Origin: Lachnospiraceae bacterium
GTDB lineage: Bacteria; Bacillota; Clostridia; Lachnospirales; Lachnospiraceae
NCBI GenBank assembly: GCA_022796475.1
Contig: JAAWIS010000010.1
Span: 1 to 58,855, forward strand
Direction of reading: 5' to 3'
DNA length: 58,855 nucleotides
Shown here: positions 1,253-22,187 of the stretch, piece by piece
Layout of the letters: each line of letters starts with the position of its first letter
How positions within the stretch are numbered: the stretch's first letter is position 1
Translations under genes and position numbers: made by a program
The notes under the pieces: generated by a model
Database searches by the model: none
What the model was told of the DNA's origin: nothing
The model's input: only the letters and a program-made list of their open reading frames with translations

Positions 1253-1300
1253 GCTGTGTTGTTACTGTTCACAGGGAACCTGTGAACGTAACGCTGTGTT
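1253..1300. mobile_element. 32-bp palindromic mini-insertion (copy A) with 8-bp target duplication
   Basis: The insert at 1261-1292 is a near-perfect palindrome starting GTTACTGTTCACAGG and ending CCTGTGAACGTAAC, with one bulged base. It is bounded on both sides by the identical octamer GCTGTGTT (1253-1260 and 1293-1300). The left half matches the left ends of the two longer elements at 15918 and 21973. I infer a minimal, non-autonomous mobile unit. It sits between the regulator and the pfp promoter and carries no coding capacity. Confidence 0.75.
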
Positions 1301-1304
1301 TTCC

Positions 1305-1338
1305 CTTTCAAGAACTTCCTATAAGAAGTTCTTGAAAG
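1305..1338. promoter_or_regulatory. Inverted repeat overlapping the -35 region of pfp
   Basis: Perfect 14-bp arms (CTTTCAAGAACTTC and its complement) surround a 6-base loop. The right arm contains the TTGAAA -35 hexamer of the pfp promoter. It could be an operator, or the terminator of the regulator gene, although the only T-run is TTTTT a few bases later. Which role applies cannot be decided from sequence. Confidence 0.5.
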
Positions 1339-1360
1339 ACATCTCCGTTTTTGCTATAAT
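1332..1360 (+). promoter_or_regulatory. Sigma-A promoter of pfp
   Basis: TTGAAA (1332-1337), exactly 17 bp, then a perfect TATAAT (1355-1360). It lies 44 bp ahead of the pfp start codon, which is preceded by AAGGGGG. Confidence 0.8.
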
Positions 1361-1404
1361 CGTAAAAAATGATTTTTTAAACCACATTAAGGGGGCATTT
1401 TATT

Positions 1405-2643
1405 ATGGCAAAAAAAGGAAATATCATCGTGGGACAGTCCGGAGGGCCTACATCTGTCATCAACTCCAGCTTAGCAGGCGTGTATAAAACAGCTAAGGAA
1501 CGGGGCTTCCATAAGGTTTATGGGATGCTGCACGGAATTCAGGGATTTTTAGATGAGCAGTATGTAGACCTTTCCACCCAGATCCATTCTGACATGGATA
1601 TTGAACTATTAAAGCGTACTCCGTCTGCATTTTTAGGTTCCTGCCGCTATAAGCTGCCGGAAATCCATGAAAATCCTGAAATTTATGAAAAAATCTTTTC
1701 TATCCTGGAAAAATTAAATATCGAAGTGTTTATCTATATCGGCGGCAATGATTCTATGGATACCATCAAGAAACTTTCTGACTACGCAATCGTAAGAGGA
1801 CACCGCCAGAAATTCTTAGGTGTTCCCAAAACCATTGACAACGATTTGGCCCTTACCGACCATACTCCCGGTTTTGGCAGCGCTGCAAAGTATATCGGCG
1901 CTTCTACAAAGGAAATCATCCGGGATGCATTAGGGCTTACTTATAATAAAGCTATGATTACCATTGTTGAAGTTATGGGCCGTAATGCCGGATGGCTTAC
2001 AGGCGCCACTGCTTTAGCAAGAACAGAAGAATGCGACGGCCCGGATTTAATCTACCTGCCTGAGGTTGCTTTTGATGTTGAAAAGTTTATTAAGAAGGTA
2101 AGTGATTTATTAAAGAAAAAAAGTTCCGTAGTAGTTGCTGTGTCAGAAGGCATTAAGCTGGAAGACGGCCGCTATGTCTGCGAACTTTCCGGCGGTGCTG
2201 ACTATGTAGACGCATTTGGCCACAAACAGCTTCAGGGCACAGCCGCTTATCTGGCCGGCCTTTTGCAGAATGAAATCGGCTGCAAAACCAGAAGCGTAGA
2301 GTTTTCTACTCTTCAAAGAAGCGCATCCCATATGGCTTCCAGAGTTGATATCAATGAAGCTTTTATGGTAGGAGGCGCTGCTGTAAAAGCTGCTGATGAG
2401 GGCGATACCGGGAAGATGGTAGTAATTGACAGGGTTTCTGACGATCCTTATATGAGTGCTGCTGGAATTTATGATGTACATAAGATTGCCAATAATGAAA
2501 AATTAGTTCCCAGAAACTGGATGAATAAGGAAGGCAATTATGTAACGGAAGACTTTATTAACTATATCGAGCCTTTAATTCAAGGTGATTACCAGCCGTT
2601 TATGGTAAACGGCCTTCCACAGCACTTGGTTCTTAAGAAATAG
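1405..2643 (+). CDS. pfp: PPi-dependent 6-phosphofructokinase
   Basis: Cytoplasmic glycolytic enzyme that interconverts fructose 6-phosphate and fructose 1,6-bisphosphate using pyrophosphate. The 412-residue protein has the PFK fold: GGPTSVINSS at the N-terminus, GGNDSMDT where ATP enzymes have GGDGS, PKTIDNDL with the lysine typical of PPi enzymes, and MGRNAGWLTG. An Asp instead of Gly at the second position of the GGxDS motif together with this Lys is the known discriminator of PPi dependence. A second, ATP-type enzyme (pfkA) is encoded at 8964-9938. It is monocistronic: its own promoter lies upstream and a strong terminator follows. Confidence 0.93.
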   Translation: MAKKGNIIVGQSGGPTSVINSSLAGVYKTAKERGFHKVYGMLHGIQGFLDEQYVDLSTQIHSDMDIELLKRTPSAFLGSCRYKLPEIHENPEIYEKIFSILEKLNIEVFIYIGGNDSMDTIKKLSDYAIVRGHRQKFLGVPKTIDNDLALTDHTPGFGSAAKYIGASTKEIIRDALGLTYNKAMITIVEVMGRNAGWLTGATALARTEECDGPDLIYLPEVAFDVEKFIKKVSDLLKKKSSVVVAVSEGIKLEDGRYVCELSGGADYVDAFGHKQLQGTAAYLAGLLQNEIGCKTRSVEFSTLQRSASHMASRVDINEAFMVGGAAVKAADEGDTGKMVVIDRVSDDPYMSAAGIYDVHKIANNEKLVPRNWMNKEGNYVTEDFINYIEPLIQGDYQPFMVNGLPQHLVLKK

Positions 2644-2733
2644 CAAAAAACCAGCGAAGCATCATAAGCAAGATTATAAATTATGCTAATGTTTATGAAT
2701 TATGTAAAAATTTAATGAATACAGAAAAGACTG

Positions 2734-2780
2734 AAAAAGGTAAAATGGTGAGCAAATATCTTGCCATTTTACCTTTTTTT
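2734..2780 (+). terminator. Rho-independent terminator of pfp
   Basis: Perfect 15-bp stem (AAAAAGGTAAAATGG paired with its complement) with a 15-base loop and a run of seven T at 2774-2780. The A-run on the left arm would let it work in both directions. The rest of the 2644-2998 gap holds the next gene's promoter and nothing else I can support. Confidence 0.85.
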
Positions 2781-2880
2781 CACACTTAAGCATCAGGATT
2801 GATAAAAATAAGGGAATCACCATGGAAGAAATTCAGCAAAAGCTTCAAAAATTTCGAATCTTCTTTTTTTGTACCAAGAT

Positions 2881-2909
2881 TTGACTTTTATTCAAAATAA
2901 TGTTATAAA
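2881..2909 (+). promoter_or_regulatory. Sigma-A promoter of the short HPr-fold gene
   Basis: TTGACT (2881-2886), 17-bp spacer, TATAAA (2904-2909), in an AT-rich stretch. The 5' leader to the ATG at 2999 is about 80 bases. Confidence 0.75.
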
Positions 2910-2998
2910 TAGGACGTCACTTCAAAAAGAAACAATGCACGGAGCCAAAGGCAAACTGCCTGTTCTCCATACATTCATCAAAAAGGAGTTTGATTATT

Positions 2999-3238
2999 AT
3001 GGAAGAAAGACGTATTAAACTGCCAACTGTAGCTGACGCTAAGGAATTTGTAATCAGAGCATCAAAATGTGATTTTGATATTGATGTATACTATAACCGC
3101 GTTATTATTGACGCAAAATCTCTGTTAGGTGTGCTGAGTTTAGATTTAACCCGTGTTCTGACAGTATCTATGCATGGCGAAAACAAAGAATTTTGTAAAT
3201 ATTTAGATCAGTTGGCTGCAAAAACGATTGCCGCTTAA
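2999..3238 (+). CDS. HPr-fold protein lacking the catalytic histidine
   Basis: A 79-residue HPr-like protein. It aligns with HPr from the first helix onward (AKEFVIRASKCDFDIDVYY) and has DAKSLLGVLSLDL, matching the K-S46-hydrophobic-G segment that HPr kinase phosphorylates. The region equivalent to GLHARPA is missing: there is only LPTVADAK and no histidine before residue 60. It therefore cannot act as a PTS phosphocarrier at His15, and a regulatory role through the serine (residue 41) is an inference. ATG at 2999 is chosen because AAAGGAG lies 10 bases upstream; a TTG at 2990 is too close to that site. It has its own promoter and terminator, so it is a stand-alone gene. Confidence 0.8.
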   Translation: MEERRIKLPTVADAKEFVIRASKCDFDIDVYYNRVIIDAKSLLGVLSLDLTRVLTVSMHGENKEFCKYLDQLAAKTIAA

Positions 3239-3239
3239 G

Positions 3240-3271
3240 AAAAAACCCCGCTGCAGACAGTGGGGTTTTTT
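3240..3271 (+). terminator. Rho-independent terminator of the HPr-fold gene
   Basis: AAAAAACCCC pairs with GGGGTTTTTT around a loop that contains a further CTG/CAG pairing. The T-run begins directly after the stem, two bases after the stop codon. Confidence 0.88.
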
Positions 3272-3378
3272 CTTACAGAGTTAAAATATTATTGCTTGTG
3301 ATTTTTACAAATTTTTACAAAATTAATAAATTCCTATGCTGTTTTCGGCAAAACCTGCACCAGATACAGCAAATACAG

Positions 3379-3423
3379 AAAGGGTATTGTAAATCATTTT
3401 CCCCATGATTTACAATACCCTTT
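3379..3423. terminator. Bidirectional terminator between convergent genes
   Basis: A 16-bp perfect stem (GGGTATTGTAAATCAT and its complement) extended by AAA/TTT, with loop TTTCCCC. The T-run is six bases on the plus side and only three on the minus side. The position suits 3' ends of both the HPr-fold gene (+) and the surface protein (-). Confidence 0.7.
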
Positions 3424-3442
3424 TTTATCTGTATGCAGAAAC

Positions 3443-6400
3443 TTACTGCACTAACGCACCGTTTGCATCTACTACCTTTTGATCCGGAGTGGTTGTATTT
3501 ACATACATAGCGCCGTCAGCACCAAGATAATACCACTTGCCTCCTGTCTGAATCCATCCGGTTGCCATAGCGCCATCCTGGTTCAGGAAATACCATTTAC
3601 CATTATCTAAAATCCAGTTTACTGCCATAGTTCCGTTCTGATTCAGGAAATACCATTTGCCTTCTGCCAGGATCCAGTTGGTTGCCATAGCGCCAGAACC
3701 TGGAACCAGATAATACCATTGGTTATCCAGTTTCAGCCATCCCTCTACCATATAACCATTTGCATCAAAACGGTAAATCGAACCGTTAATCTTTGCCCAC
3801 TGATTTTTCGGATAACTCTTATCCGTCTTTTCCAGCCACCAGCCATTTTCGTCTTTTATCCATGTGCCGGTAACAGCCGGTGCGGAAACCGGGCTGTTGA
3901 AAGAGGAAGAACCGCCGGAACCTCCACCGCCACCGCCGCCGCCGGAACCTCCGCCGCCGCCAGAGCTGCCTCCAGAACTGCTTTGCTTGCGGGTGCCCGT
4001 CTGAATTGCCGCCTTAAAGGTTTCTGTTGCCTGGTTCAGTTCTGCTGCAATTGCAGCCGCCTCTGCTTCAGTCAGCGGATTTTCTCTTGCTGCTTCTGCC
4101 TTCTTAATGGCTTCTTCAAATGCCTTAAGCTCTTCAGAGGAAACGAAACGGGTTCCTTCTGTTACTGCAGCAGGAACGCTGTTATTGACAGAAACCCCTT
4201 CCTTGGCTTTCTTTGCATTTTTGATTGCTTCATCTACATTTTCCGGATGATAAGGAATGATGGAAGCAGTAACTTTAAGGGCCTTTCCTTCGTAATTTCC
4301 TGCATCCTTACCAATAAGGTTTACCGTAACAATTATATTTTTATCTGTGCCTGGATTTTTGTCAGAAAATGCCCCGGTTACCTGTCCAAGCTTCACTTCA
4401 TCGCCGCTTATAATCCGGCTTTCATCCAAAACAGCAGTTACCACAGCGTCTGCTGTTCCATCGTAAGTCTTATCTTCTGCTTTTACCGCAACATCCAGCG
4501 GCCTCTTAGCAATCGTAAAGGTGGTGCTTCCCGTTCCGGTACACATATCATCCTTTGCCGCTGTAATTGTCACCGTTGCTCCATCTCCTGCATTTACGTT
4601 CTGATAATAGGAAACGGTATACCAGTCTGCTGCAATAGCCTGGCCCATTACTTTCACTGTTACAGAAGGCTGCTTTTCTGTCTTGTCATATACAATGCCG
4701 CCCTGTGGAATATCCAGTTCTATCTGAGCCCTGGCCAGGTTTGCCCGCTCAATCACAAAGTTAATTGTCTGTTGGCTTGGGAGGACATAATTTCCGCCAG
4801 CTTTGTTGCTTATTGTAACAGTTGCTGTTCCGATATTAATGTTATTGGAGTAGCTTACACTGTACTCGCTTTCCGGGATCACTGTGCTGCCGTCTTTTAC
4901 TGTAACAGCAGGAGTAATTGGCTTTCCATTATAATCATATGGTCCTGCTTCCAGGACAATTGCAGGATTGTTTACTTGTTTCGGAGAAACGTTCACATTA
5001 ATATCAACATTTTTAACCGTCTTATATGTATTGGTATCGGATGGGACAAAGTCAGCCTTAAAAGACTTGCTTCCGGCATTTCCAACTGAAGTTTCCGAAT
5101 TCTGCCAGCTCCAGGTGCCTGGAGTGTTTCCGGCAGGATTCTGGAGAGCCACATCCTTTAAGATTTGGCCATAAACTGCCTTTGGAGCCGGATAAGAGGA
5201 AAGTTTCGGATCCAGCTTCGGCTTATAGCTTTTATCTGCTAAAGTAAGGATATCTTCTCCGTAAAGAGCAAACTGATCCTCCTGACCTGTGGCATATTCA
5301 TAAGTAACCTTAGTGCCGTTTGGCCGGAAGGTGTATCCGCTCCTGGCGCTGCCCTCACTAGTGCCTGCCAGGAATAAAAGACGATCTGCGCCTACGGATC
5401 CGCCGTCACAGTTTGTAATGTCTACCAGGTAGTTTTTACCGTCCTCCATGGTAACGATATTCCACATGTGGGGACCTCCTCCTCCGGTTGCCCCAAACAT
5501 ATCTCCCACAGCAATATAGCTGATTACCTTTTCATCATCAAAGGAAGATAAATCACACAGATACTGGAAGGCTTTTGCATATCCTTCACATACCACATCC
5601 GTATTTTGATCGCCGTCAAAGACGTGAACCAACTGCCAGGGATCTCCATAGGCAACGGCACTCCTGCTTACTGCATCGTAATCATAAGATACCAGGCGGC
5701 AGATTTCTTCCCTGTATGCATCCAGTTTTTCATAGTCATCTTTTCCTGCATGTTTTGATACGATGGCCTGGGCATTCTTTGCCGCTGCTTTTGCCGTACT
5801 TACTTTTGCGCCTTTTACAGCATAAGCCCCCCCATCCTGGTATGCCTTTGCAACTGTCATGACGCAGATTAGCTTCTGAGGAGCGTAGAGCATTCCGTTT
5901 TTATAAGAAAAGGAAATCCCTCCTGTTTCACCTGTCAGGCTAACTCCTGCTGTCTTATCAAACCAGTACAGTTCAAAGGGACAGTTAATCAGCAGAAGAT
6001 CCAGCGCCGCTCCCAGATCAGGAATACACTGATCTGCCGCTTTGTCTACTGCCTCTTTGTTGATCCGGCCTCCTACCACGAGAGAAGATACTCCCAGATC
6101 TGCTGCTGTCCAACTGGTTTTGGTTACGCCCAGATCCGCCATTGTAAATTCGATCCTAGAGGATTTTCTGGTTCCGTCTGAAATTGCTGTTATTTCACGC
6201 TTCAGCTTTTGGTAAAACTTCCCGTCGATTCCTTTCAGCCGATCTTCGCCAAAATTGCCTAAAAGGGCAATTTCATCGCTGCCATACATAATCTGTTCGA
6301 TGTAGGCTGCAAGAAGCTCTTCGCCCTCCGGAAGATCTGAGTCACCTCCATCCGGAACGACAACAATATCGTCTATCTGGAATGTCAGCTTTAATTCTTC

Positions 6401-6856
6401 CCCCTGGCAGTCTGAAAACAGAGCGTCATCTCTGCCGCACACAGGGCATTTTTCATTTATAAAATCTTCCGTACATTTTTCTTCACAGATACATTCTTTT
6501 GGCTCTGATGCCGATTCTTCCGGCTGGGAAGTTTTTGACGGCTGGCTGGAGCCTGATGTTTCTTCTTCCTCTTTGGAATCCTCTTGGCCTCCGCTGCTGC
6601 CTTCCGGTTCCTTAGCCTCTGTATCTTCTGTTTTTGTATCTTCTTCTGTTTCTTCTGGCTTAGTTTCTTCCGTTTCTTTTTCTGCTTCTGTTTCTTTTTC
6701 TGTTTCCCGGTCTGCATCAGACGAGCTGGCCGCTTCCGTGCCTGATGCTTTGCGTCCTGCTGATAATTCCCCTGCCGAAGCAGAAAATGCTGTCATGTTT
6801 AGCAGCATACACATGGTAAGGAGCATACTCAGCAGCTTTTTCCCACGCATCTTCAT
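3443..6856 (-). CDS. Secreted transglutaminase-like, MBG-repeat, cell-wall-binding surface protein
   Basis: A 1137-residue exported protein. In order: signal peptide with MLLTMCMLLNMTAFSASAG; a Glu/Thr/Ser-rich low-complexity stretch (about 35-120); a Cys cluster (C122, C124, C128, C137, C140, C150) resembling a small zinc ribbon; a transglutaminase/protease-like core with a plausible Cys-His-Asp triad at VVCEGYAK (C423), GPHMWN (H463) and LVDITN (D479); MBG/Ig-like repeats (about 560-880, with TYDGTADA-type motifs); a charged helical segment; a Gly/Ser linker (about 965-1000); and four or five GW/YY choline-binding-type repeats (NGKWYFLNQNG) to the C-terminus. These repeats anchor proteins to wall or teichoic polymers without sortase. 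The substrate is unknown. ATG at 6856 has GGAGGG just upstream; 6850 is an alternative start. Confidence 0.85.
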   Translation of the reverse strand: MKMRGKKLLSMLLTMCMLLNMTAFSASAGELSAGRKASGTEAASSSDADRETEKETEAEKETEETKPEETEEDTKTEDTEAKEPEGSSGGQEDSKEEEETSGSSQPSKTSQPEESASEPKECICEEKCTEDFINEKCPVCGRDDALFSDCQGEELKLTFQIDDIVVVPDGGDSDLPEGEELLAAYIEQIMYGSDEIALLGNFGEDRLKGIDGKFYQKLKREITAISDGTRKSSRIEFTMADLGVTKTSWTAADLGVSSLVVGGRINKEAVDKAADQCIPDLGAALDLLLINCPFELYWFDKTAGVSLTGETGGISFSYKNGMLYAPQKLICVMTVAKAYQDGGAYAVKGAKVSTAKAAAKNAQAIVSKHAGKDDYEKLDAYREEICRLVSYDYDAVSRSAVAYGDPWQLVHVFDGDQNTDVVCEGYAKAFQYLCDLSSFDDEKVISYIAVGDMFGATGGGGPHMWNIVTMEDGKNYLVDITNCDGGSVGADRLLFLAGTSEGSARSGYTFRPNGTKVTYEYATGQEDQFALYGEDILTLADKSYKPKLDPKLSSYPAPKAVYGQILKDVALQNPAGNTPGTWSWQNSETSVGNAGSKSFKADFVPSDTNTYKTVKNVDINVNVSPKQVNNPAIVLEAGPYDYNGKPITPAVTVKDGSTVIPESEYSVSYSNNINIGTATVTISNKAGGNYVLPSQQTINFVIERANLARAQIELDIPQGGIVYDKTEKQPSVTVKVMGQAIAADWYTVSYYQNVNAGDGATVTITAAKDDMCTGTGSTTFTIAKRPLDVAVKAEDKTYDGTADAVVTAVLDESRIISGDEVKLGQVTGAFSDKNPGTDKNIIVTVNLIGKDAGNYEGKALKVTASIIPYHPENVDEAIKNAKKAKEGVSVNNSVPAAVTEGTRFVSSEELKAFEEAIKKAEAARENPLTEAEAAAIAAELNQATETFKAAIQTGTRKQSSSGGSSGGGGGSGGGGGGGGSGGSSSFNSPVSAPAVTGTWIKDENGWWLEKTDKSYPKNQWAKINGSIYRFDANGYMVEGWLKLDNQWYYLVPGSGAMATNWILAEGKWYFLNQNGTMAVNWILDNGKWYFLNQDGAMATGWIQTGGKWYYLGADGAMYVNTTTPDQKVVDANGALVQ

Positions 6857-6892
6857 TTCATCCCTCCATATTAATTAAATTGGGCTTTCCTG

Positions 6893-7004
6893 CATTGACC
6901 ATACTTTCTAAATAAGTCCCGGCGCCAAGTAAGGGACACACAAGTTTTCCAGAGAAGCCAGGTCAATGGCCCTTTACTGCTGTTCCTGTTATCCCCCCTT
7001 ACTT
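6893..7004 (-). promoter_or_regulatory. Structured 5' leader with pseudoknot-type complementarity
   Basis: Read as RNA, the leader of the surface-protein gene contains, in order, AAGTAAGGG (7004-6996), CATTGACC (6968-6961), CCCTTACTT (6935-6927) and GGTCAATG (6900-6893). Segment 1 is complementary to 3 over 9 bp and segment 2 to 4 over 8 bp, an interleaved H-type arrangement. A local GTCCC/GGGAC hairpin lies inside. This could be a riboswitch or other structured leader. I could not match it to a known class, and the first segment lies at about the predicted transcription start. Confidence 0.4.
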
Positions 7005-7010
7005 TTCAGC

Positions 7011-7040
7011 ACAATATTTCCAAAGAACCATTTCTGTCAA
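7011..7040 (-). promoter_or_regulatory. Promoter for the surface-protein gene
   Basis: On the minus strand, a perfect TTGACA (7040-7035), 18-bp spacer and TATTGT (7016-7011). Transcription would begin near 7004 and give a leader of roughly 150 bases. The remainder of the 6857-7283 gap holds only this promoter and the leader. Confidence 0.6.
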
Positions 7041-7283
7041 AGCACTCAATGGGCTGCACAAAATCATCCTTGGTTCTTCAGATACTGCAGGCTTTGCCGC
7101 ATTTTAAGAATACCATATCTTTCCTTAAAATAAAACCTGCTTTTGTAAGAATTCTGTATTTGTTTTTGTATGCAGGAAGTTTTACCTGTTTGAAGCAGAC
7201 AACACTCCATCCATTCAGCAGCATGGGGAGAGGCATATCACAAAAGGAATCTCTGAAAAATCGCTGGCCCCTGGTCAGGTCTT

Positions 7284-8252
7284 TTACGGGCCTGAGAGCC
7301 GCTCTTGTAAAAGCTGTGTCATTTCCTCTAAGGTATTTACCTGATTAATGGCATTCCGCAAGGCGGCTGAATGAGGCAGTCCTGCCGTATACCAGGCCAT
7401 ATGCTTGCGCATTTCCCGCATGGCAGTATGTTCACCTTTATACTCACTCAAAAGGATGCCATGGCGTAAAATCATTTCTTTTATTTCCTCAAGCGTTGGT
7501 TTTGGAAGCAGTTGGCCCGTTTCCAGATAATGAAGGGCAGAAGAAAAAATCCAGGGATTCCCCTTTGCTCCTCTGCCAATCATAACTCCGTCACAGCCTG
7601 TTTCTTCCATCATCCGTTTTGCGTCCTGAGGGGCAAACACATCTCCATTTCCGATTACCGGAATCCTGACTGCCTCTTTTACCTGGCGGATGATGTCCCA
7701 GTCTGCCTTTCCGGAGTAATACTGTTCCCTGGTCCGCCCATGGACCGCCACTGCCGACACACCGCAGCTTTCCGCAATTTTAGCGATTTCTACTGCATTT
7801 GTCTGTCCCTCATAAAACCCTTTCCGAAATTTAACGGTTACTGGTTTTTTTACGTGCCTTACCATAGCAGTGAAAATCTGCTCTGCCTTTTTTGGATCCT
7901 TCATCAGTGCAGAGCCTTCCCCGTTATTTACAATTTTCGGAACCGGACATCCCATATTAAAGTCAATCACATCGTAAGGGCCTTCTTCCATCTCTGCCGC
8001 AATTTCTCCCAGGATCTCTGGATCCGAACCGAAAAGCTGAACTGCCACAGGCCCCTCTGCTTTGCTTACCTGAAGCAGCGCCTGAGTGTTTTTGTTGCGG
8101 TAAAGAATTGCCTTTGCGCTAACCATCTCTGTCACAGCCATGCCGCATCCCTGCTCCCTGCAAAGAACACGATAAGGCAAATCAGTTACTCCGGCCATAG
8201 GAGCTAAAATAAGATTGCAGTCCAACGCAACATTTCCAATTTTCAGATTCAT
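7284..8252 (-). CDS. dusB: tRNA-dihydrouridine synthase
   Basis: FMN/NADPH-dependent enzyme that reduces uridines in the tRNA D-loop, in the cytoplasm. The 322-residue TIM barrel has LAPMAGVTDLPYR at the N-terminus, VTEMVSAK, DFNMGCPVPKI containing the family Cys (GCP), VTVKFRKGF, HGRTREQYYSG, and IPVIGNGD plus GRGAKGNPW for phosphate binding. Its ATG overlaps the stop of the upstream gene (8249-8641) by four bases, so the two are translationally coupled. In related genomes the same short partner precedes dusB (from memory). The 3' end holds an imperfect hairpin but no clear terminator. Confidence 0.93.
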   Translation of the reverse strand: MNLKIGNVALDCNLILAPMAGVTDLPYRVLCREQGCGMAVTEMVSAKAILYRNKNTQALLQVSKAEGPVAVQLFGSDPEILGEIAAEMEEGPYDVIDFNMGCPVPKIVNNGEGSALMKDPKKAEQIFTAMVRHVKKPVTVKFRKGFYEGQTNAVEIAKIAESCGVSAVAVHGRTREQYYSGKADWDIIRQVKEAVRIPVIGNGDVFAPQDAKRMMEETGCDGVMIGRGAKGNPWIFSSALHYLETGQLLPKPTLEEIKEMILRHGILLSEYKGEHTAMREMRKHMAWYTAGLPHSAALRNAINQVNTLEEMTQLLQERLSGP

Positions 8253-8641
8253 ACTCCCTTCTCTCCGTCAAATTCTGGCATCTCTTTTCCCAGAATAAAT
8301 ACTTGATAAAACAGCTCCAGACTTTCTAAAAGCTCCCGTTTTTCCCGCTGGTACTGTCTGATTTTCAGCTCACTTCCAATCTCGTCAAACAGATAATCCT
8401 GGTCATGGACTTCCACACGAAACTCCAAACTGCCTTCCGGAGAAAATTCCAGAATCAGCACACCGCCTACATCCTCTGTAAAAAGCACACACAAAATCTG
8501 AAGCTCCTGCTGAATGCTTTCCGGAAGCTTTCCAAAGCTGGGATTAAAGTAATATTTCTGTTCATAAGAATTCGCTCCGCAAAGTACGATCCGATTCTCT
8601 GATTCTTCCATGGAGTTCTGATTTTCACTCTGGTTTTCCAT
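8249..8641 (-). CDS. Conserved acidic 130-residue protein, probable DUF6145 family
   Basis: Unknown function. The acidic, Gln-rich N-terminus is followed by a conserved-looking core (RIVLCGANSYEQKYYFNP, then ELQILCVLFTEDVGGVLILEF) and a C-terminal helix rich in Arg/Glu. There are no membrane segments or catalytic motifs. Assignment to DUF6145, a Lachnospiraceae family I associate with dusB, is from memory and should be treated as probable. Overlap with dusB by ATGA indicates a two-gene operon. The putative ribosome site GGAG is rather far (about 14 bases) from the ATG. Confidence 0.7.
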   Translation of the reverse strand: MENQSENQNSMEESENRIVLCGANSYEQKYYFNPSFGKLPESIQQELQILCVLFTEDVGGVLILEFSPEGSLEFRVEVHDQDYLFDEIGSELKIRQYQREKRELLESLELFYQVFILGKEMPEFDGEKGV

Positions 8642-8677
8642 ATAGTTTCCGCGCTCCTTTTATCATTACTTCTATGT

Positions 8678-8877
8678 TATGATACCAGGGTCAAAAGGTC
8701 TAAAATCTGATGCAAGCTTGCCTGCAAGAGGATTTTTGAACTTGGGACCCGCCAAAAACATGAAAAAGCAGCCCGAACAGGGCGGATTTTGAATGTTTTT
8801 GAGGATTGCGGGAGTACAAAGTACGGAGCAATCCGGTATCAGAGGGGTCAAAACACCTTTTGACCCCAACATCATGT
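8678..8877. repeat. Non-coding element of about 200 bp with inverted ends and internal hairpins
   Basis: The ends carry inverted GGGTCAAAAGGT (8688-8699 and the complement at 8855-8866), each next to an ATGAT-type sequence. Inside are a perfect 10-bp hairpin (GGGGTCAAAA at 8844-8853 with its complement) and a GGATTGC...GTAC-AAA-GTAC...GCAATCC double stem (about 8803-8834). The only long frame is a low-complexity shadow. It looks like a miniature mobile or interspersed repeat, but only one copy is in the window and no target duplication is obvious. Confidence 0.5.
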
Positions 8878-8911
8878 TATTAAGCCAAATTAAGGCAGCA
8901 GATAATTGCAA

Positions 8912-8937
8912 AGCGCCGTAAGCATACTTACGGCGCT
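8912..8937 (-). terminator. Hairpin at the 3' end of pfkA
   Basis: Perfect 11-bp stem (AGCGCCGTAAG with its complement) and loop CATA, 27 bases after the pfkA stop. The downstream tract on the minus strand is TTGCAATTAT, a weak U-run, so termination efficiency is uncertain. Confidence 0.55.
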
Positions 8938-8963
8938 AAATAAACAATCTCACAGCCAGCCAT

Positions 8964-13582: not shown

Positions 13583-13640
13583 AGATGAAATCCTCCTATT
13601 CTTGAGTAAAGTATACCATATCCATCCAATTCCCACCACA

Positions 13641-13666
13641 AAAAAACACGCTTGCGCGTGTTTTTT
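13641..13666 (-). terminator. Terminator of the crh-like/whiA operon
   Basis: AAAAAACACGC and GCGTGTTTTTT form an 11-bp stem around TTGC. The A/T runs on both sides make it potentially bidirectional. It sits between the stop of the HPr-family gene and the dnaE start. Confidence 0.85.
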
Positions 13667-13715
13667 ATGAAAAGCCAATTCCCCCAGCTCATTATTCCTA
13701 GTTTTGTTTCACTTG

Positions 13716-13970
13716 TTAATTATTTTTTAAGTACTTTTCAATATCCGAAATCGCCTGCTGTTCATCATCACCGTCTGCCATAATTACTAATTCTTCCCCT
13801 GCTGTCAGCCCCAAAGTCATCATACCCATAATACTTTTTGCATTCACCCGCTTAGATTCCGATTCCACGTAAATCCTGCTTTCATACTGGCTTGCCACCT
13901 GTACTAACATCGCAATTGGTCTTGCTTCCAAACCGGATGTGAGTTCAATGGTAACTGTCTTTCTTATCAT
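13716..13970 (-). CDS. Crh-like HPr-family protein with Glu at position 15
   Basis: An 84-residue HPr-fold protein. Numbering matches HPr exactly: the motif normally GLHARPA is GLEARPIA, so the phosphocarrier His15 is Glu15, while AKSIMGMMTLG keeps Ser46, the target of HPr kinase. Crh of Bacillus subtilis also lacks His15 (Gln there) and lies next to whiA, as here. A role in CcpA-type catabolite control rather than sugar transport is therefore inferred. ATG 13970 has GAGGAGG upstream and lies inside the 3' end of whiA (26-base overlap). hprK is four genes upstream on the same strand. Confidence 0.88.
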   Translation of the reverse strand: MIRKTVTIELTSGLEARPIAMLVQVASQYESRIYVESESKRVNAKSIMGMMTLGLTAGEELVIMADGDDEQQAISDIEKYLKNN

Positions 13971-14979: not shown

Positions 14980-15869
14980 TATCCCTCTTTCTCTGCCCGC
15001 CTTTTCCAGCCGTCATTTTCAATATCACGGTGGAACAGCTTTACACCATAGCCCGGATGGAGGGCAAGCCAGTGATACAAGGCCCTGGCAATGGTAACGG
15101 AACGGTGCTTTCCACCTGTACAGCCAATACCAATTACTAATTGGTTCTTTCCCTCTGAAATGTAATTAGGAAGCAGAAAGTCCAGCATATCAAAGAGTTT
15201 ATTTAAAAAAAGATCCGCTGTTCCCCCCTGCTTTACATACTCCTGAACTGCCGCCTCTTCTCCTGTCCTTCTTCGCAGATCTTCTACATAGTAAGGATTT
15301 GGAAGAAACCGGACATCAAAGATTAAATCTCCGTCTGTCGGAATCCCGTATTTAAAACCAAAGGAAAGAACTGTAATATATAAATTTTTATAATCCTTTG
15401 CTTCCACAAAAATTTTTTCCAGTTCTTTGCGCAGCTCCCTGGTAAGAAGATGACTGGTATCAATAATAAAGTCGGAGGACTTCTTTAAAAAAGCCAGCCG
15501 CTCCCGCTCCAGTTCGATCCCTTTCTCAATCCGCCCTCCTGCTGCCAAAGGATGCATCCGCCTGGTTTCCTTATAACGCTTAATTAATACCTCATCTCCT
15601 GCATCCAAAAACAGTACCTGGTAACGAACACCCTTTTGCTCCCACCGCTTTAAAACATCCTTTAGCTGAGGCAACTCTTCCCCGCTGCGGATATCAACAC
15701 CAAGAGCAATCTTTTTAATCCCTCCCACATGGTTTAAACTCAGATCCGTAAAGGGATCCACCAGGGATATGGGCAGATTGTCTACGCAGTAATACCCCAT
15801 ATCTTCCAGCATTTTCAGCGCCTGTGTTTTTCCTGCACCGGACATTCCGGTTATAATTACCAGCTTCAT
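14979..15869 (-). CDS. rapZ: RNase adapter / nucleotide-binding protein RapZ
   Basis: A 296-residue P-loop protein. Walker A is GMSGAGKTQ at residues 8-16, and DNLPISLVDPF follows. The C-terminal domain has IGCTGGKHRSVTIA, the site known to bind GlcN-6-P in E. coli RapZ. In E. coli it controls RNase E action on GlmZ; in Firmicutes the role is less defined but linked to cell-wall precursor supply. ATG 15869 is preferred over a GTG nine bases upstream because the GTG lies within the AAGGTGG ribosome site. It is separated from murB by a mobile element. Confidence 0.94.
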   Translation of the reverse strand: MKLVIITGMSGAGKTQALKMLEDMGYYCVDNLPISLVDPFTDLSLNHVGGIKKIALGVDIRSGEELPQLKDVLKRWEQKGVRYQVLFLDAGDEVLIKRYKETRRMHPLAAGGRIEKGIELERERLAFLKKSSDFIIDTSHLLTRELRKELEKIFVEAKDYKNLYITVLSFGFKYGIPTDGDLIFDVRFLPNPYYVEDLRRRTGEEAAVQEYVKQGGTADLFLNKLFDMLDFLLPNYISEGKNQLVIGIGCTGGKHRSVTIARALYHWLALHPGYGVKLFHRDIENDGWKRRAEKEG

Positions 15870-15917
15870 ACCTACCACCTTTCGGCCTTTCTCTTATGCG
15901 GCACTGCCTGAGGATTC

Positions 15918-16061
15918 GTTACTGTTCACAGGCGTCATGTGAACGTAATCCCATATGCCCATTTAGAATCGCCTGCGGCGATGGGGCATATGCTTTGCTC
16001 CCATAACGATATTGGCTCGTGACGAATCAGCGGGGTGATACGTCACGATGGGAACAGTAAC
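15918..16061. mobile_element. 144-bp hairpin element (copy B), murB-rapZ interval
   Basis: Starts GTTACTGTTCACA and ends GGGAACAGTAAC, which are inverted ends. Flanking octamers GAGGATTC (15910-15917) and GAAGATGC (16062-16069) match at 6 of 8 bases, a decayed target duplication. Inside are three hairpins: the end palindrome with TGTGAACGTAAT, a CATATGCCC/GGGGCATATG stem enclosing CGCCTGCGGCG, and CGTGACGaATCA/TGATaCGTCACG. Non-coding. It interrupts an otherwise tight operon. Confidence 0.75.
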
Positions 16062-16078
16062 GAAGATGCCTTCTTTAT

Positions 16079-17011
16079 CTATCTGCCCTCCTGCCGCTTC
16101 ATATCCCCCAAACATTTTATTTCCAGCTCCAGTTCCACTCCGAACTGTTCTTTTACCCTTTCTGAAACCTGGCAGCACAGTGTTATCACATCTCTGGCAG
16201 TGGCATGATCCCGGTTAATAACAAATCCGCTGTGTTTTTCTGATACTTGGGCGCCGCCTACCTGAAACCCTTTTAAGCCTGCATCCTGAATCAGCTTTCC
16301 TGCAAAGAAACCTTCCGGACGCTTAAAGGTACTTCCTGCACTTGGATATTCCAAAGGCTGCTTTAATCGCCGCAGTTTTGCCAGTTCTTCTATCCTTGCC
16401 CGAATTTTTTCCGGTTCTCCCTTTTCCAGTGAAAACTGTGCTCCTAATACAATCCAGCCATTTTTCAAAATACTGCTGGTCCGGTATCCCAGTTCAAGGC
16501 TGCCTGCTGCCACCTCTTTTATAGTTCCATCGCCTGTTAATACCCGTACCCCAGTAAGCACATCTTTCATCTCACAGCCGTAAGCTCCGGCATTCATCAC
16601 AGCAGCGCCTCCCACAGTTCCAGGAATCCCGGCAGCAAATTCCAGCCCTGTAAGTCCTTCTTCCAAGGCTTTATTTGCAGTCTGGGACAGCAAAGCTCCG
16701 GCGCCTGCTTCCAGAAGGGAACCCTTGATACAAATACTGCCAAGGCTTTTCCCAATCTCAATTACAACCCCTTCATACCCCTGGTCGCTGACCAAAAGAT
16801 TGCTTCCATTTCCCAGAATAAACCAGGGAATTCCTTTCCTTCTGCACAATGCAACCACGGCTTTTAATTCCTCTTTGCTGCCAGGAGATACGAATATTTT
16901 GGCAGGCCCTCCGATACGGAAGGTGGTATGAGCGCTCATAAGCTCCTTTTGGCGAACCCGTTCCTTTTCCTGAACCAGGCTGCAGATCGATTCATAAATC
17001 TGACTGTTCAT
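16079..17011 (-). CDS. murB: UDP-N-acetylmuramate dehydrogenase
   Basis: FAD enzyme of 310 residues that reduces UDP-GlcNAc-enolpyruvate with NADPH, the second committed step of peptidoglycan precursor synthesis. FAD-binding motifs are TTFRIGGPAKIFVSP and WFILGNGSNLLVSD, then LEFAAGIPGTVGGAAVMNAGAYG and GYRTSS. PSAGSTFKRPEGFFAG supplies the catalytic Ser and KHSGFVIN closes the domain. It lacks the Tyr loop of the type I enzyme, so it is the type II form common in Firmicutes. It starts 22 bases after the hprK stop. Confidence 0.96.
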   Translation of the reverse strand: MNSQIYESICSLVQEKERVRQKELMSAHTTFRIGGPAKIFVSPGSKEELKAVVALCRRKGIPWFILGNGSNLLVSDQGYEGVVIEIGKSLGSICIKGSLLEAGAGALLSQTANKALEEGLTGLEFAAGIPGTVGGAAVMNAGAYGCEMKDVLTGVRVLTGDGTIKEVAAGSLELGYRTSSILKNGWIVLGAQFSLEKGEPEKIRARIEELAKLRRLKQPLEYPSAGSTFKRPEGFFAGKLIQDAGLKGFQVGGAQVSEKHSGFVINRDHATARDVITLCCQVSERVKEQFGVELELEIKCLGDMKRQEGR

Positions 17012-17033
17012 AGCTGCCCTTCCTGCAATTTAT

Positions 17034-17963
17034 TTATTCAAACCTTCTGCTTAAATTTGCCTGTACCCGGTTGTACAGCTCCTGAGCCGCATTATAGCCC
17101 ATCTTCTTCTGACGGTAATTAACTGCCGCAGACTCAACGATAATCGCCAGATTCCGGCCAGGACGGATGGGGATCGAATGGCAGACTACCTGATTGCCTA
17201 AAAATTCCGTATACTGATCTTCCAGGCCCAGACGATCATACTCCCTGTCCTTGTCCCAATCTTCCAGTTTTATCACCATATCAATGGACTGGGTTTCTTT
17301 TACGCTTTCTACGCCATACAAGGTTTTCACATCAATGATTCCGATTCCCCGCAGTTCGATAAAATGCTTTGTAATATCCGGAGAACTGCCAATCAGAGTT
17401 TCATCGCTTACCTTTCTGATTTCCACCACATCATCTGTTACCAAACGGTGTCCTCTTTTAATCAGCTCCAAAGCTGCCTCACTTTTTCCAATTCCGCTTT
17501 CTCCCATAATCAGCACGCCCTCGCCGAATACATCCACTAAAACGCCGTGAATGCTGATGCAGGGCGCCATCTGAACTTTCAGCCAGCGGATGGTTTCCGC
17601 CATAAAATCAGAAGTAGGCTGTTCTGAAACTAAAACCGGAACATCATAATGGCTGGCCAGGTTCAAAATATCCTCATCCGGCGTCATTCCCCGGCAGTAT
17701 ACAAGGCATGGAATCTTACTGGAAAGCAGCCGGTCATATACTTCCATCTTTCTCTCATAGCTTAAGGTGGATACGTAAGCCCGTTCCACTGTTCCTACTA
17801 CCTGAACTCTTTCATGATCGAAATGATCGAAAAATCCTGCTAACTGAAGGGCCGGCCGGTTAACCTCTGGATGGGTCAGAACCGTCTTGTCCGTATCCTG
17901 CTCCGGAGTGGCATTTTTTAATTTCATTTTATGAATCAGCTTTGAAACAGTTACCCCATGCAT
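17034..17963 (-). CDS. hprK: HPr(Ser) kinase/phosphorylase
   Basis: A 309-residue bifunctional sensor enzyme that phosphorylates Ser46 of HPr/Crh with ATP or PPi and reverses the reaction, setting carbon catabolite repression. The N-terminal half (about 1-130) is the MurF-like domain. The catalytic half has SIHGVLVDVFG (H139), Walker A GESGIGKSE (154-162), TDDVVEIR, ELRGIGIIDV and SIPIRPGRNLA. All catalytic motifs are intact. Its likely partners, two HPr-fold proteins, are in this window. Ribosome site TAAAGGAG lies upstream of the ATG. Confidence 0.96.
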   Translation of the reverse strand: MHGVTVSKLIHKMKLKNATPEQDTDKTVLTHPEVNRPALQLAGFFDHFDHERVQVVGTVERAYVSTLSYERKMEVYDRLLSSKIPCLVYCRGMTPDEDILNLASHYDVPVLVSEQPTSDFMAETIRWLKVQMAPCISIHGVLVDVFGEGVLIMGESGIGKSEAALELIKRGHRLVTDDVVEIRKVSDETLIGSSPDITKHFIELRGIGIIDVKTLYGVESVKETQSIDMVIKLEDWDKDREYDRLGLEDQYTEFLGNQVVCHSIPIRPGRNLAIIVESAAVNYRQKKMGYNAAQELYNRVQANLSRRFE

Positions 17964-18066
17964 CTTCCTAATCTCCTTTATCTTACATTACCATATGCTT
18001 CTTGCTGCTGTTATCTTAACACAACTTATTTGGATTGTCATTCCTTTTTCTGTCATTTTGGCTCTG

Positions 18067-19995
18067 TCATCTGTCTTCCTCTGCCGCCGGATGAAAAAAT
18101 TCATAAACCTGCTTTGCAGCCAGCCGGTTCATATGAGGAGTATGTTCCAGTTCTTCCACAGAAGCAGCCCGGATCCCTTCCTGGCTTTTAAACTGCTTCA
18201 TCAGCGCTTTTCTTCTTGCCGGCCCGATACCCGGAATCTCATCTAAGATTGATTTTACCTGGTTTTTGCTCCGAAGGCTTCTGTGATACTCAATAGCAAA
18301 GCGATGAGCTTCATCCTGGATCCTGGTGATAAGCCGGAACCCTTCGGAATGCTTGTCAACCGGAATCTCAATATTATGGAAATACAAACCTCTGGTTCTG
18401 TGGTTGTCATCTTTTACCATACCACATACAGGAATTTCTAAATTCAATTTCCTTAACACTTCCAGAGCAATATTTACCTGTCCCCGCCCTCCGTCCATCA
18501 TAATCAAATCCGGAAACCTGGTAAAGCTTCCCAAATCCAGATCCATTCCTTTTTGCTTTAGCCGTTCCTCTTCCTCCAGGCCATGGGAAAATCGTCTGGT
18601 AAGCACTTCCTCCATAGAAGCGTAGTCATTTGGTCCCTGGACAGACTGGATCCGAAACTTCCGGTAATCGCTTCTCTTTGGCTTTCCGTCTTCATAGACA
18701 ATCATAGATCCCACTGACTCAAAGCCGCTGATATTAGAAATATCGAATGCTTCAATCCGACGGATATTCCGAAGCTTAAGCCATTCCCCAACCTGGTTCA
18801 TAGCTCCAATCGTGCGAAGTTCCTCCCGTTTTATCTTTTCTTTATCCTGATCCAAAACCATTTTGGCATTTTTTGCCGCCAGTTCTACCAGCTTCTCTTT
18901 TTCCCCTTTTTTCGGGCTGACCAGCCGCACTTTCTGGCCACGCTTAGCACTAAGCCAGCTGGCAATCACTTCTTCGTCCTCAAGGGGAACCTGCAAAAGA
19001 AGCTCCCTTGGGATAAAAGGAGTTCCCGCATAAAACTGTTTAACAAAGCTTGATAAAATCTGGCCCTTTTCCTCTTCCACTACCGTATTCATATGAAAAT
19101 GATCTCTTCCGATCAATCGCCCTTCCCGCACAAAAAAAACTTGAACCACACCATCCTGTCCATCCTTTGCCATGGCAATAATGTCCCTGTCTTCCAGTCC
19201 GGAACTGGTAATTTTCTGCTTTTGGGCTACCTGCTTTATGCTGGATAACAGCTCCCGGTATTCTATGGCTTTTTCAAAATCCAGCTCTTCTGAAGCCGCG
19301 GCCATCTTCTCTTCCAGCTCCTGCATCAGCTCTTTATAATTTCCATTTAAAAAATCCAGAATCTTTTGAATTCCCTTCTGATACTCCTCTCTGCTTATAT
19401 AGCCTTGGCAGGGAGCGCTGCACTGCTTAATATGATAATTTAAGCAGGGGCGCTCCTTTCCCACATCTTTTGGAAGAGAACGGCTGCAGGTCCGGATTCG
19501 ATACAGTTTATGAATCAAATCAAGGGTATCTTTTACAGCCCCTACGCTGGTATAAGGGCCAAAATACTTGCTTTTGTCCTTTTTGATTTCTCTGGATAAG
19601 GAAACTCTTGGAAAATCCTCCCAAACGGTAACTTTAATGTAAGGATACGTTTTGTCATCCTTCAGCATCGTATTATACCGCGGCCGGTGTTCCTTAATCA
19701 GATTACATTCCAAAACCAGGGCTTCCAGCTCTGAGTCCGTTATAATATATTCAAATCTGGCAATCTTTGATACCATCTGCTCAATCTTTGCCGTTTTGTT
19801 CCGGCTGCTCTGAAAATACTGGCGAACCCTGTTTTTTAAACTGATGGCCTTTCCTACATATATGATCTCATCCTTTGCATCATGCATTAAATATACGCCT
19901 GGCTTTGCCGGAAGTTTTTTCAGCTCTGCTTCTACATCAAAAGCGCCCAAAGGTGAACGGCGCACACATTTTCCCTGCTGCTGTTCCTGTTCCAT
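18067..19995 (-). CDS. uvrC: Excinuclease ABC subunit C
   Basis: Nucleotide excision repair nuclease of 642 residues that makes both incisions with UvrB. Domains: GIY-YIG ([19 protein letters not shown], about 30-110), Cys cluster ([13 protein letters not shown]), UvrB-interacting UVR helix ([20 protein letters not shown]), RNase H-like domain ([39 protein letters not shown]), and C-terminal HhH ([19 protein letters not shown]). It ends about 100 bases before hprK and follows the DUF1653 gene closely, so co-transcription is plausible. Confidence 0.96.
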
Positions 19996-20013
19996 ATCCT
20001 CACCTCTTTTGCA

Positions 20014-20511
20014 TTACCGAAGCCGGCTTCCGTCATATTTCTTTCTTGTTTCCAAATGCCTTATAATCCCTCGTATCTGGCTGTCTACATCTTCTGTTTT
20101 ATAAGGCATGGAAATATCCAGCGCCAGATAAATGCTGTCTAATTCTTTCTGGCTAATATTGCCGCTCATCTGGCCTAAGATTTCCAATTGCTCTTCATAT
20201 CCCTTTGCATCTAAAAAATGCTCCAGCCACGGATTCATCCCCTGCCTGGCTGGCAGCCCGTTTTCTTCCTCTTCCCTGACAAATACAACCTGCTCAAACC
20301 GGTACTTCTGTTGGGCATTTGGATACTTTTTGCGATCCACCTGGCTAAGAAACATAGACAGCGGCCTTGCATATATGCGAAAATCACCATAAAGGGCCTG
20401 ATAGATCACCAGTTCTTCACCTGTTTCCGTATGTTTGGCAACTGCTATAATCTGATAAAAGGTATTTTTGAAATGTCTGTAAAATTCCCCTGGTTTTGGT
20501 ATTCTGTCCAT
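20014..20511 (-). CDS. DUF1653 domain protein
   Basis: A 165-residue cytoplasmic protein of unknown function. The first 75 residues are a DUF1653 domain (KPGEFYRHFKNTFYQIIAVA, EELVIYQALYGDF, IYARPLSMFLSQVD), a small SH3-like fold. The remainder is a helical extension with no recognised motif (LDAKGYEEQLEILGQMSGNIS). It lies six bases downstream of the lipoprotein gene and 18 bases upstream of uvrC, within one minus-strand transcription unit. Confidence 0.88.
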   Translation of the reverse strand: MDRIPKPGEFYRHFKNTFYQIIAVAKHTETGEELVIYQALYGDFRIYARPLSMFLSQVDRKKYPNAQQKYRFEQVVFVREEEENGLPARQGMNPWLEHFLDAKGYEEQLEILGQMSGNISQKELDSIYLALDISMPYKTEDVDSQIRGIIRHLETRKKYDGSRLR

Positions 20512-20517
20512 TTTGTC

Positions 20518-21759
20518 CTACTCCTTTTCTTCCGGATCCCTCCTGGCTTGTCCTTCCATTCTGTCCCCATCCTCTGCCTCCTCTGCTGTCAAAAGTCCCT
20601 CGTAATGATACTTTCCAGACGCATTCCATAAAATCCACTGTTCATATCCGGCATCGTATACTGCCTGAATCTGTTCCCTGACTTCTATAGGTCCATATGG
20701 AATATAATGGGATAAATAGCTGGCAGTAAAATCCTGAAGCCAGGGTCTGACCAGGGCTGATGGCTCCCTTTCCGTCTGAGAAAGTGCAACTTTCGATCCA
20801 GACAGGGCATTGAAAACGGTTTCATAGGGCTCCATGTCCGGATACGCAATTCCAAAATTCCCATTTCCGTAATGGGAAGGATACACCATTGGGCAAATTG
20901 CATCCAGCTTTCCCGCCATTTTTTCGTAGTCCTGCCCTACAGCCTCTGCATCCTCTCTGCCAAAGATCACTGCTCCAAACACGTCAGCCGATACGTACAG
21001 CCCCTTTCTCCTAAGCTGCCTGCAGGCATATTCTGTAAATTCCAGGATAATTTCCTGTCTGGATTTCCCCTTCGTATCTGCCTGGTCAAAAATCACTTCG
21101 TTCATACCTTTTTCCGTGCCGAACCGGATATAGTCAAATTGAATTTCATCAAATCCTGCCTCTCCTGCCTGCTGGGCAATCTCAATCAGATACTCCCAAA
21201 CTTCTTTTTTATACGGGTTCACCCATGCCAGATTATTTTTATCCCGGTACACAGTCCCGTCTGCTTTTTTACAGCACCATTCCGGTTTTGCTTCTGCCAG
21301 ATAGGGATCACGAAACGCCGGAATCCTTGCAATCAGATAAATTCCGTGCTCCTTTAAATTTTTCGTCAGAGCCTTAATATCTGGAATATACCCGGAAGAA
21401 GAGCCAATCTCCTGCACCAGAGGAGAATCCATGGAAAAGGTAACGATTCCGTTATCATCTTTTACATCAATCACCACTGCATTTAATTCTGTGGCATCTA
21501 GCTGAACCAGAATCTTGTCCATTTCTGCGGCTGACCCGGCTGTATAAGCAGACAGATAGATTCCCTTTACTTTCACAGGATCCGAAAATTTTTGGACCAG
21601 TTCTTCACTTCTGCTCTTTTGCTCTTTTCGTGCCTTTAACTTCCTTTCATCCTGTGTTTTCAGTCCTGACTGGCTTTTAAGGCCGTCTGAGGGCGGCTGA
21701 TACCTTTGGCATCCCATAACCGCCGCTGCCAGGAATATGGCAAACACCCATTTTTTCAT
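20518..21759 (-). CDS. Putative glycoside hydrolase lipoprotein (DUF4015 family)
   Basis: A 413-residue exported protein. ATG 21759 gives MKKWVFAIFLAAAVMGC, a lipoprotein signal with lipobox ending at Cys17; the longer frame would bury it. After a charged linker comes a TIM-barrel domain of the DUF4015/putative glycosidase family (KGIYLSAYTAGSAAEMD, NAVVIDVKDDNG, YLIARIPAFRDP, FDEIQFDYIRFGTEKG, VSADVFGAVIFG, MVYPSHYGNGNFG). The conserved acidic residues (QFDYIRF Asp, ADVFG) look present. The substrate is unknown; a cell-wall or capsule glycan is a guess. It is the first gene of the run leading to uvrC, divergent from dinB. Confidence 0.88.
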   Translation of the reverse strand: MKKWVFAIFLAAAVMGCQRYQPPSDGLKSQSGLKTQDERKLKARKEQKSRSEELVQKFSDPVKVKGIYLSAYTAGSAAEMDKILVQLDATELNAVVIDVKDDNGIVTFSMDSPLVQEIGSSSGYIPDIKALTKNLKEHGIYLIARIPAFRDPYLAEAKPEWCCKKADGTVYRDKNNLAWVNPYKKEVWEYLIEIAQQAGEAGFDEIQFDYIRFGTEKGMNEVIFDQADTKGKSRQEIILEFTEYACRQLRRKGLYVSADVFGAVIFGREDAEAVGQDYEKMAGKLDAICPMVYPSHYGNGNFGIAYPDMEPYETVFNALSGSKVALSQTEREPSALVRPWLQDFTASYLSHYIPYGPIEVREQIQAVYDAGYEQWILWNASGKYHYEGLLTAEEAEDGDRMEGQARRDPEEKE

Positions 21760-21972
21760 CCCTGCACTCCCAAAATCCCCTGCCCCTGCAGGTATTATTC
21801 CTAATGCTTTCACATATGATACCAAATCGCTGTCTAATCATTATATTCAGGAACGTTTGAATCATGTATTCTTACTCTTGTCTGTCAAAGGCGGCATGCT
21901 GATTTTGATCCATTGTACAATATCGGAAAGTGAATTACAAGCCTATAGAAAGCAACTGTTATTCTTGACATT

Positions 21973-22117
21973 GTTACTGTTCACAGTTACCCTGTGAACG
22001 TAACCGCATAGGCCCATTTAAAATCGCCTGGCGGCGATGGGGCATATGCTTTGCCACCATAGCTGTACTGGCTCATGACGAATCAGCGTGGTGATTCGTC
22101 ATGGTGTGAACATTAAC
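21973..22117. mobile_element. 145-bp hairpin element (copy C), upstream of dinB
   Basis: Begins GTTACTGTTCACAG and ends GTGAACATTAAC. It is flanked by identical octamers TTGACATT at 21965-21972 and 22118-22125. It aligns along its whole length with the 15918-16061 element: end palindrome, CCCATTTAAAATCGCC...GGGGCATATGC stem, and a perfect 12-bp stem CATGACGAATCA with its complement. Non-coding. The rest of the 21760-22187 gap shows nothing else I can support beyond a weak dinB promoter. Confidence 0.8.
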
Positions 22118-22187
22118 TTGACATTTTCTCAAAATGCCTCTAAGGTTATTGATAAAAGAACTTAATTTCGAAATAGGAGATATCCTT

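Follow-up and report, generated by a model that had tools for sequence, protein, structure and literature searches.

The window analysed here, a 58,855-nucleotide stretch of Lachnospiraceae DNA, holds three short sites that open with the same motif, GTTACTGTTCAC, and close with its inverted form, which raises the question of whether these sites are mobile insertions and, if so, what kind of enzyme moved them. The motif occurs exactly on the forward strand at 1261, 15918 and 21973. On the far side each copy has a near-inverted form of the motif: GTGAACGTAAC, which lacks one base, at 1292 in copy 1; GGGAACAGTAAC, with one mismatch, at 16061 in copy 2; and GTGAACATTAAC, with one mismatch, at 22117 in copy 3, so that copies 2 and 3 have GTTACTGTTCAC terminal inverted repeats at both ends with zero or one mismatch. 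The original prediction had described the sites in this way and had reported flanking octamers matching at 8/8 for copies 1 and 3 and at 6/8 for copy 2; the octamers were re-read and are the same.

Features of the three copies

1253..1260, forward strand: left 8-bp target duplication of copy 1, GCTGTGTT, matching 1293-1300 at 8/8
1261..1292, forward strand: copy 1, a 32-bp mini element with one hairpin, the counterpart of hairpin 1 in the full element
1293..1300, forward strand: right 8-bp target duplication of copy 1, GCTGTGTT
15910..15917, forward strand: left target duplication of copy 2, GAGGATTC, decayed, matching the right one at 6/8
15918..16061, forward strand: copy 2, a 144-bp full-length element of subfamily B
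16062..16069, forward strand: right target duplication of copy 2, GAAGATGC
21965..21972, forward strand: left 8-bp target duplication of copy 3, TTGACATT
21973..22117, forward strand: copy 3, a 145-bp full-length element of subfamily A
21973..22004, forward strand: hairpin 1 of copy 3, made up of the terminal repeat and, after it, an inverted copy of that repeat
22006..22049, forward strand: hairpin 2 of copy 3, an outer stem around a conserved AAATCGCC...GGCGATGGG core (positions counted by hand)
22074..22103, forward strand: hairpin 3 of copy 3 (self-match at 102-131 of the element)
22105..22117, reverse strand: right terminal inverted repeat of copy 3
22118..22125, forward strand: right 8-bp target duplication of copy 3, TTGACATT, matching the left one at 8/8

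A genome-wide family with insertion scars

Taken alone, the window provides modest motif statistics, because the seven occurrences found with up to two mismatches (2.26 expected) are reached in 1 of 100 shuffles. The genome-wide count is decisive: across the whole genome from which the window comes (G000), ends matching the 13-mer GTTACTGTTCACA with at most one mismatch number 45 + 39 = 84, versus 1 for the reversed control. Searching that genome with the 145-bp copy 3, as had been proposed, returned at least 46 BLAST matches (best 40 of 67 candidates scored), and among the matches listed 28 by our own count span at least 139 of the 145 bases at 85-100% identity. Copy 2 is absent among the matches listed for this query; a copy 2 query does find copy 3 and many others.

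Insertion leaves a direct repeat of the target, so the 8 bases outside each oriented end were compared with the 8 bases beyond candidate right ends up to 240 bp away, with a null in which flanks were permuted among copies 200 times and with ends no more than 12 bases from the start of a stretch, as well as repeated records, excluded. The sample from G000 comprised all end-match places (56 stretches and the window), and G009, G002, G003, G005 and G010 were sampled partly, from listed end-match places. In these six genomes the flanks match at 7/8 or 8/8 at 117 of 236 oriented ends, versus 1.06 expected by flank permutation. A genome-wide set of copies without flanking duplications, the outcome that the original prediction had named as evidence against itself, is therefore not what these genomes contain. 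When sightings of both ends of one element are merged, 80 distinct elements remain, 53 of them with perfect octamers (in G000, G002, G003, G005 and G009); none of the five sampled ends in G010 is scarred. The relative G007 has seven full copies that could be delimited among nine loci, six with octamers at 8/8 and one at 7/8.

The full copies measure 131-149 bp and the minis 18-58 bp, and neither contains a transposase gene. The view of the three sites as small non-coding insertions with 8-bp duplications is thus borne out in the window's genome and in its relatives: they are members of a genome-wide non-coding family with GTTACTGTTCACA ends and 8-bp target duplications. The elements are short, bounded by inverted repeats, flanked by duplications and present in many copies, which makes them non-autonomous miniature inverted-repeat transposable elements (MITEs). 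Copy 1, on which we correct the earlier description, is not a separate small type but the counterpart of hairpin 1 in a full element.

Sites without the element were sought in two ways. Joined-flank queries for paralogous empty sites (n=117), run against the fetched loci, gave self-matches only (L007 and L003 are the same places). In ten relatives of the genus the spacer orthologous to that of copy 2 was located. The version in L243 has a run of N inside; from the other nine spacers the full element is absent, and one of these (L244, of G010) has a single end match within two mismatches. The pre-insertion octamer of copy 2 is unreadable in these nine diverged spacers, because the flanking genes are 67-82% identical to those of the relatives and the spacers align unreliably. 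In G009 (L065), two ends that face each other across 894 bp proved to be separate items on either side of a response-regulator-like ORF.

Three hairpins whose stems covary between species groups

When the three window copies are folded as RNA, z-scores range from -3.9 to -6.3 over the two strands, with the single hairpin of copy 1 at -17.1 kcal/mol (z -5.4), and the full elements of three species groups (G000/G003, G007 and G009) have three hairpins in common. Within G000 and the locus L107 the hairpins are near-invariant, and covariation inside this family is weak, with two-sided change in 2 of 42 pairs; it appears between families. There the outer stem of hairpin 2 differs in sequence and yet 220 of 227 cells pair, with two-sided change in 6 of 11 pairs, and the stem of hairpin 3 likewise differs while 238 of 264 cells pair, with two-sided change in 8 of 12 pairs. 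A slid-register control pairs 24-50% of cells and has 1-3 two-sided pairs. This comparison used a register set by hand on 22 chosen sequences from three families, so few independent events underlie it. The loop cores are conserved across the groups.

Strong hairpins and stems that covary between species groups would speak for structured RNAs or regulatory repeats, kept in intergenic positions for the host, in place of mobile DNA. We consider such an account very improbable, since the excess of octamer duplications over the permuted flanks contradicts a non-mobile reading, the full copy 2 is missing from the orthologous spacers of relatives, and the element has no match among Rfam families. A later gain of a host function is possible. 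The covariation would result equally from selection on a folded strand and from DNA correction in which one arm serves to repair the other. Stems that change in sequence and stay paired are a second testable puzzle posed by this family, next to that of its shortest members.

Short copies and their origin

Ultra-short copies are common. Among 31 scarred elements in G000, 24 exceed 60 bp and 7 measure 18-35 bp; the 36 scarred elements in G009 comprise 8 longer than 60 bp and 28 minis of 23-58 bp, of which 15 have perfect octamers and 18 share the commonest length, 26 bp. An extra 33-bp copy in L014, with a 2-base spacer ahead of it, lies outside the automatic count, and the two 18-bp cases (L060 and L061) have poor right ends.

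We think that these copies of 18-58 bp are products of deletion in place. Hairpin 1 consists of the terminal repeat and an inverted copy of it, so that a full element contains an internal copy of its end. Together with the far end, this internal copy makes up short direct repeats, for which reason the middle would be readily lost in place, leaving remnants of 18-58 bp between the original octamers. The 26-bp class ends at an 8-bp direct repeat, ACAG[C/T]AAC. Junction overlaps of at least 5 bp, with one mismatch allowed, occur in 15 of the 28 G009 minis versus 19% under the null; the overlap is below 5 bp in the other 13. The G000 minis do no better than the null (3/8 at 5 bp or more versus 43%), so that microhomology, positive in G009 only, gives partial support and does not serve as proof of deletion. 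Read in this way, copy 1 of the window would be a deletion remnant and copies 2 and 3 full units.

The minis might instead transpose by themselves, the internal inverted end acting as the right end and hairpin 1 being the minimal mobile unit, an account that would cover the minis of 18-58 bp, which are mostly 26 bp in G009 and, for part of them, 32-35 bp in G000. In favour of this, minis make up 28 of the 36 good-octamer elements found in G009, more than half of them with perfect octamers, and hairpin-1-like minis are found in unrelated element families: 32-33 bp in G000, 26 bp in G009 and 34 bp in G060, where one reads CGAAAAGC and has an 8/8 octamer. Judged by eye, full elements of G000, G007, G009, G060 and G235 also have a self-inverted head. 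The break points, however, are varied (18, 23, 24, 25, 26 and 47-58 bp), which speaks more for repeated deletion than for a single moving unit; 9 of the 18 G009 minis of 26 bp end in GCAAC, the usual internal allele, and not in the terminal GTAAC (counted by hand); and in the 18-bp L061 a deletion seems to have run into the right octamer at a CCTG repeat. Nor is the self-inverted head a general requirement, because inspection by eye did not reveal it in the elements of G157, G132 and G230 or in L113 of G002. We therefore hold self-transposition of the minis to be possible but unlikely.

The narrower proposal that hairpin 1 alone, whose 26-35 bp amount to scarcely more than a pair of transposon ends facing each other, moves as an independent unit seems to us slightly less likely again. 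If it were true, hairpin 1 would be by far the smallest target-duplicating DNA element known to us, and the larger elements would be a hairpin 1 unit joined to two structured hairpins with selection acting on their shape. The insertion scars around units of 18-35 bp make the minimum size of a transposable DNA directly testable.

An IS66-like transposase as the candidate mobiliser

The most likely mobiliser is an IS66-like transposase acting on MITEs with IS66-like ends, an explanation that we consider probable as a whole, the deletion origin of the minis included. The original prediction had named no transposase for these ends; the type probably responsible can now be given, and with it a likely transposase type is proposed for a group of small elements in gut Lachnospiraceae. 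Such an enzyme, supplied in trans, would recognise the ends of about 13 bp, GTTACTGTTCACA, and insert the unit, non-coding, about 131-149 bp long and folding into three hairpins, by a staggered cut that gives rise to the 8-bp duplication; the duplication itself is seen directly.

Partners were searched for with PF03050 and then with a profile of divergent transposases (the A1 profile), and complete elements were reached in this way. An IS66-like element from another genus of the family (L163) has ends GTTACTGTTCACACCC...GTTACTGTTCAGACGC and the octamer GCCGGAAT on both sides, and a further one (L165) has GTTACTGTTCACACCC at both ends, its left flank lying off the contig. Within the genus of the window, G003, which also carries copies of the window's element, has a multi-copy IS that ends GTTAC[T/C]ATTCACAG, one or two bases different, and makes 8-bp duplications. 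One copy, of 2.28 kb on contig 60, contains two ORFs and a run of N, and further copies terminate contigs. When left-end and right-end contigs were paired by octamer, 5 of 6 left ends found an exact partner and all other pairings reached at most 6/8.

Among 15 listed IS copies, chosen since both ends were seen, 8 have a perfect octamer; these 8/8 cases include Schaedlerella arabinosiphila (L139, L140 and L142) and Dorea sp. 5-2 (L143, together with L141, where a run of N intervenes). The other seven have no matching octamer. In one of them, L138, 7 bases are shared at an offset of one, and the remaining six may be truncated, rearranged or wrongly paired. G060 combines one such IS end with a 145-bp element whose octamers match at 7/8 and with two minis of 34 bp, one at 7/8 and the other at 8/8. 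Other PF03050 copies in G002 and G003, besides L094, were considered as partners and set aside: in the six such loci scanned (L085, L086, L087, L088, L091 and L092) no GTTACTGTTCAC end was seen at up to one mismatch.

An 8-bp target duplication is typical of the IS66 family, whose ends start GTAA and whose accessory gene is tnpB. The partner elements resemble this family in their 8-bp duplications and in the DDE_Tnp_IS66 domain (PF03050), which scores 44.6-90.5 bits in four transposases, above the cut-off of 23.1. They depart from it in that five transposases score 140.9-162 bits with the NCBIfam IS66 transposase equivalog, below its cut-off of 180, and in that the four small upstream ORFs scanned for tnpB match no Pfam family above cut-off; the MITEs themselves are gene-free. 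As to the ends, the accessible part of one source gives GTAACCGTCCGGGCA for Pseudomonas IS66 members, to which the G-T-x-A-C ends here are comparable, and two examples of ends starting GTAA, whereas the ends here start GTTAC (PMC12888890). The accessible part of another source merely lists an IS66 copy (PMC9769881).

The mobiliser is inferred from the ends and the duplication length, because G000 and G009 have no IS66 transposase by family or by profile and the presence of an A1-type transposase is not predictive of exact ends. PF03050 finds no match in G000, G005 and G009, nor does the A1 profile in G000 and G009, so that neither search found an autonomous element with the same ends in the window's genome. 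PF03050 is likewise absent from 12 of 15 further genomes, including G007 and the element-rich G230, G243, G157, G132, G152 and G229. Exact ends are no commoner where an A1-type transposase is present (3/15, versus 58/299 family genomes overall, by hand), and two of those three genomes, G091 and G126, may show only the IS itself. The interiors of element and IS have no clear similarity beyond the ends. The autonomous partner appears to have been lost from the G000 assembly or left unassembled; loss after a burst, or a gap in short-read assembly, would explain the lack of an IS66 transposase in G000 and G009.

That PF03050 is not found in most of the element-rich genomes searched would also fit a transposase of a family other than IS66, the common ends being convergent, and in three loci (L303, L141 and L217) an IS4-type element, with PF01609 in L303, lies directly inside these ends. 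A similar AATGTCATTTAGTTA end in L128, however, has no GTTACTGTTCAC before it, so GTTACTGTTCAC seems not to be part of the IS4-type element, and convergence is hard to reconcile with 13 identical end bases and the same 8-bp duplication in L163, together with the in-genus IS copies of G003. We judge a non-IS66 mobiliser improbable and retain the IS66-like enzyme as the candidate.

Relation to other small elements

ERIC, RUP, Correia and similar sequences are intergenic, palindromic, multi-copy and non-coding, with lengths of about 100-150 bp, and in all of this the present elements are like them. Unlike the present elements, they duplicate TA rather than 8 bp, and the transposases to which they are linked are others. 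A precedent for movement is MITEPsy1 of Pseudomonas syringae, a MITE shown to move, which is 100 nt long with 18-nt repeats, a 4-nt duplication and ISPsy2 as its suggested parent (PMC3189936, accessible part). It is likewise short and non-coding, with IS-like terminal repeats and a target duplication, but its repeats are larger, its duplication is 4 nt as opposed to 8 bp, and hairpin-only minis were not seen for it in that part of the source (PMC3189936). In the literature searched we found no paper with GTTACTGTTCAC or GTGAACAGTAAC, nor a description of this small-element group of gut Lachnospiraceae.

Distribution

No match to the 145-bp element was found in phages and plasmids, and one short mini pattern had 0 matches in viral contigs. 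Among the 299 family genomes, 58 contain exact 13-base ends. Of these, 26 have a single hit (hand count), versus 24 genomes hit by the reversed control, and may represent chance matches; 32 of the 299 have two or more exact ends, versus 1 for the control (hand count). Of 29 exact ends from other genera (20 stretches from 11 genomes, with the G060 loci), 18 are flanked by octamers that match at 7/8 or 8/8. This count was made without a shuffled control and allowed right ends at distances of up to 2.6 kb, and some of its entries are the two ends of one element. The interiors of these other-genera elements look different by eye.

An IS4-type element inside the GTTACTRTTCACAG ends

The GTTACTRTTCACAG end is directly bordered on its inner side by an IS4-type element, with ends resembling AATGTCATTTAGTTAA, in sequence stretches from three different genomes:

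L303:1681-3023, IS4-type element inside a GTTACTRTTCACAG end, PF01609
L141:1229-1260 (Dorea sp. 5-2), IS4-type element inside a GTTACTRTTCACAG end
L217:about 387-430, IS4-type element inside a GTTACTRTTCACAG end

PF01609 is the domain found in the L303 copy. It appears as if the IS4-type element targets GTTACTRTTCACAG ends; a similar AATGTCATTTAGTTAA-like end lies at another place, without the GTTACTRTTCACAG motif, in L128.

Unusual copies in relatives

In Schaedlerella arabinosiphila (L140:3270-3294), GTTACTATTCATAATAAC forms a unit of 18 bp, with TTTTTTC directly after it. This unit adjoins a complete IS66-like copy whose octamer is CTTTTTTC, and resembles a collapsed IS. Within the window's own genus, G009 carries a truncated element as a 33-bp repeat, three times in tandem (L066:689-790), and a palindrome, GGAATCAGGG...CCCTGATTCC, with a 26-bp short version of the element at its centre (L070:about 699-724), around which the octamer duplication is absent. 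G002 has a 144-bp, hairpin-rich interior of a differing type between the same ends (L113:528-671).

Structured RNAs in the window

8680-8841, + strand, Clostridiales-1 RNA (RF01699), 136 bits
32530-32645, - strand, THF riboswitch (RF01831), 87 bits
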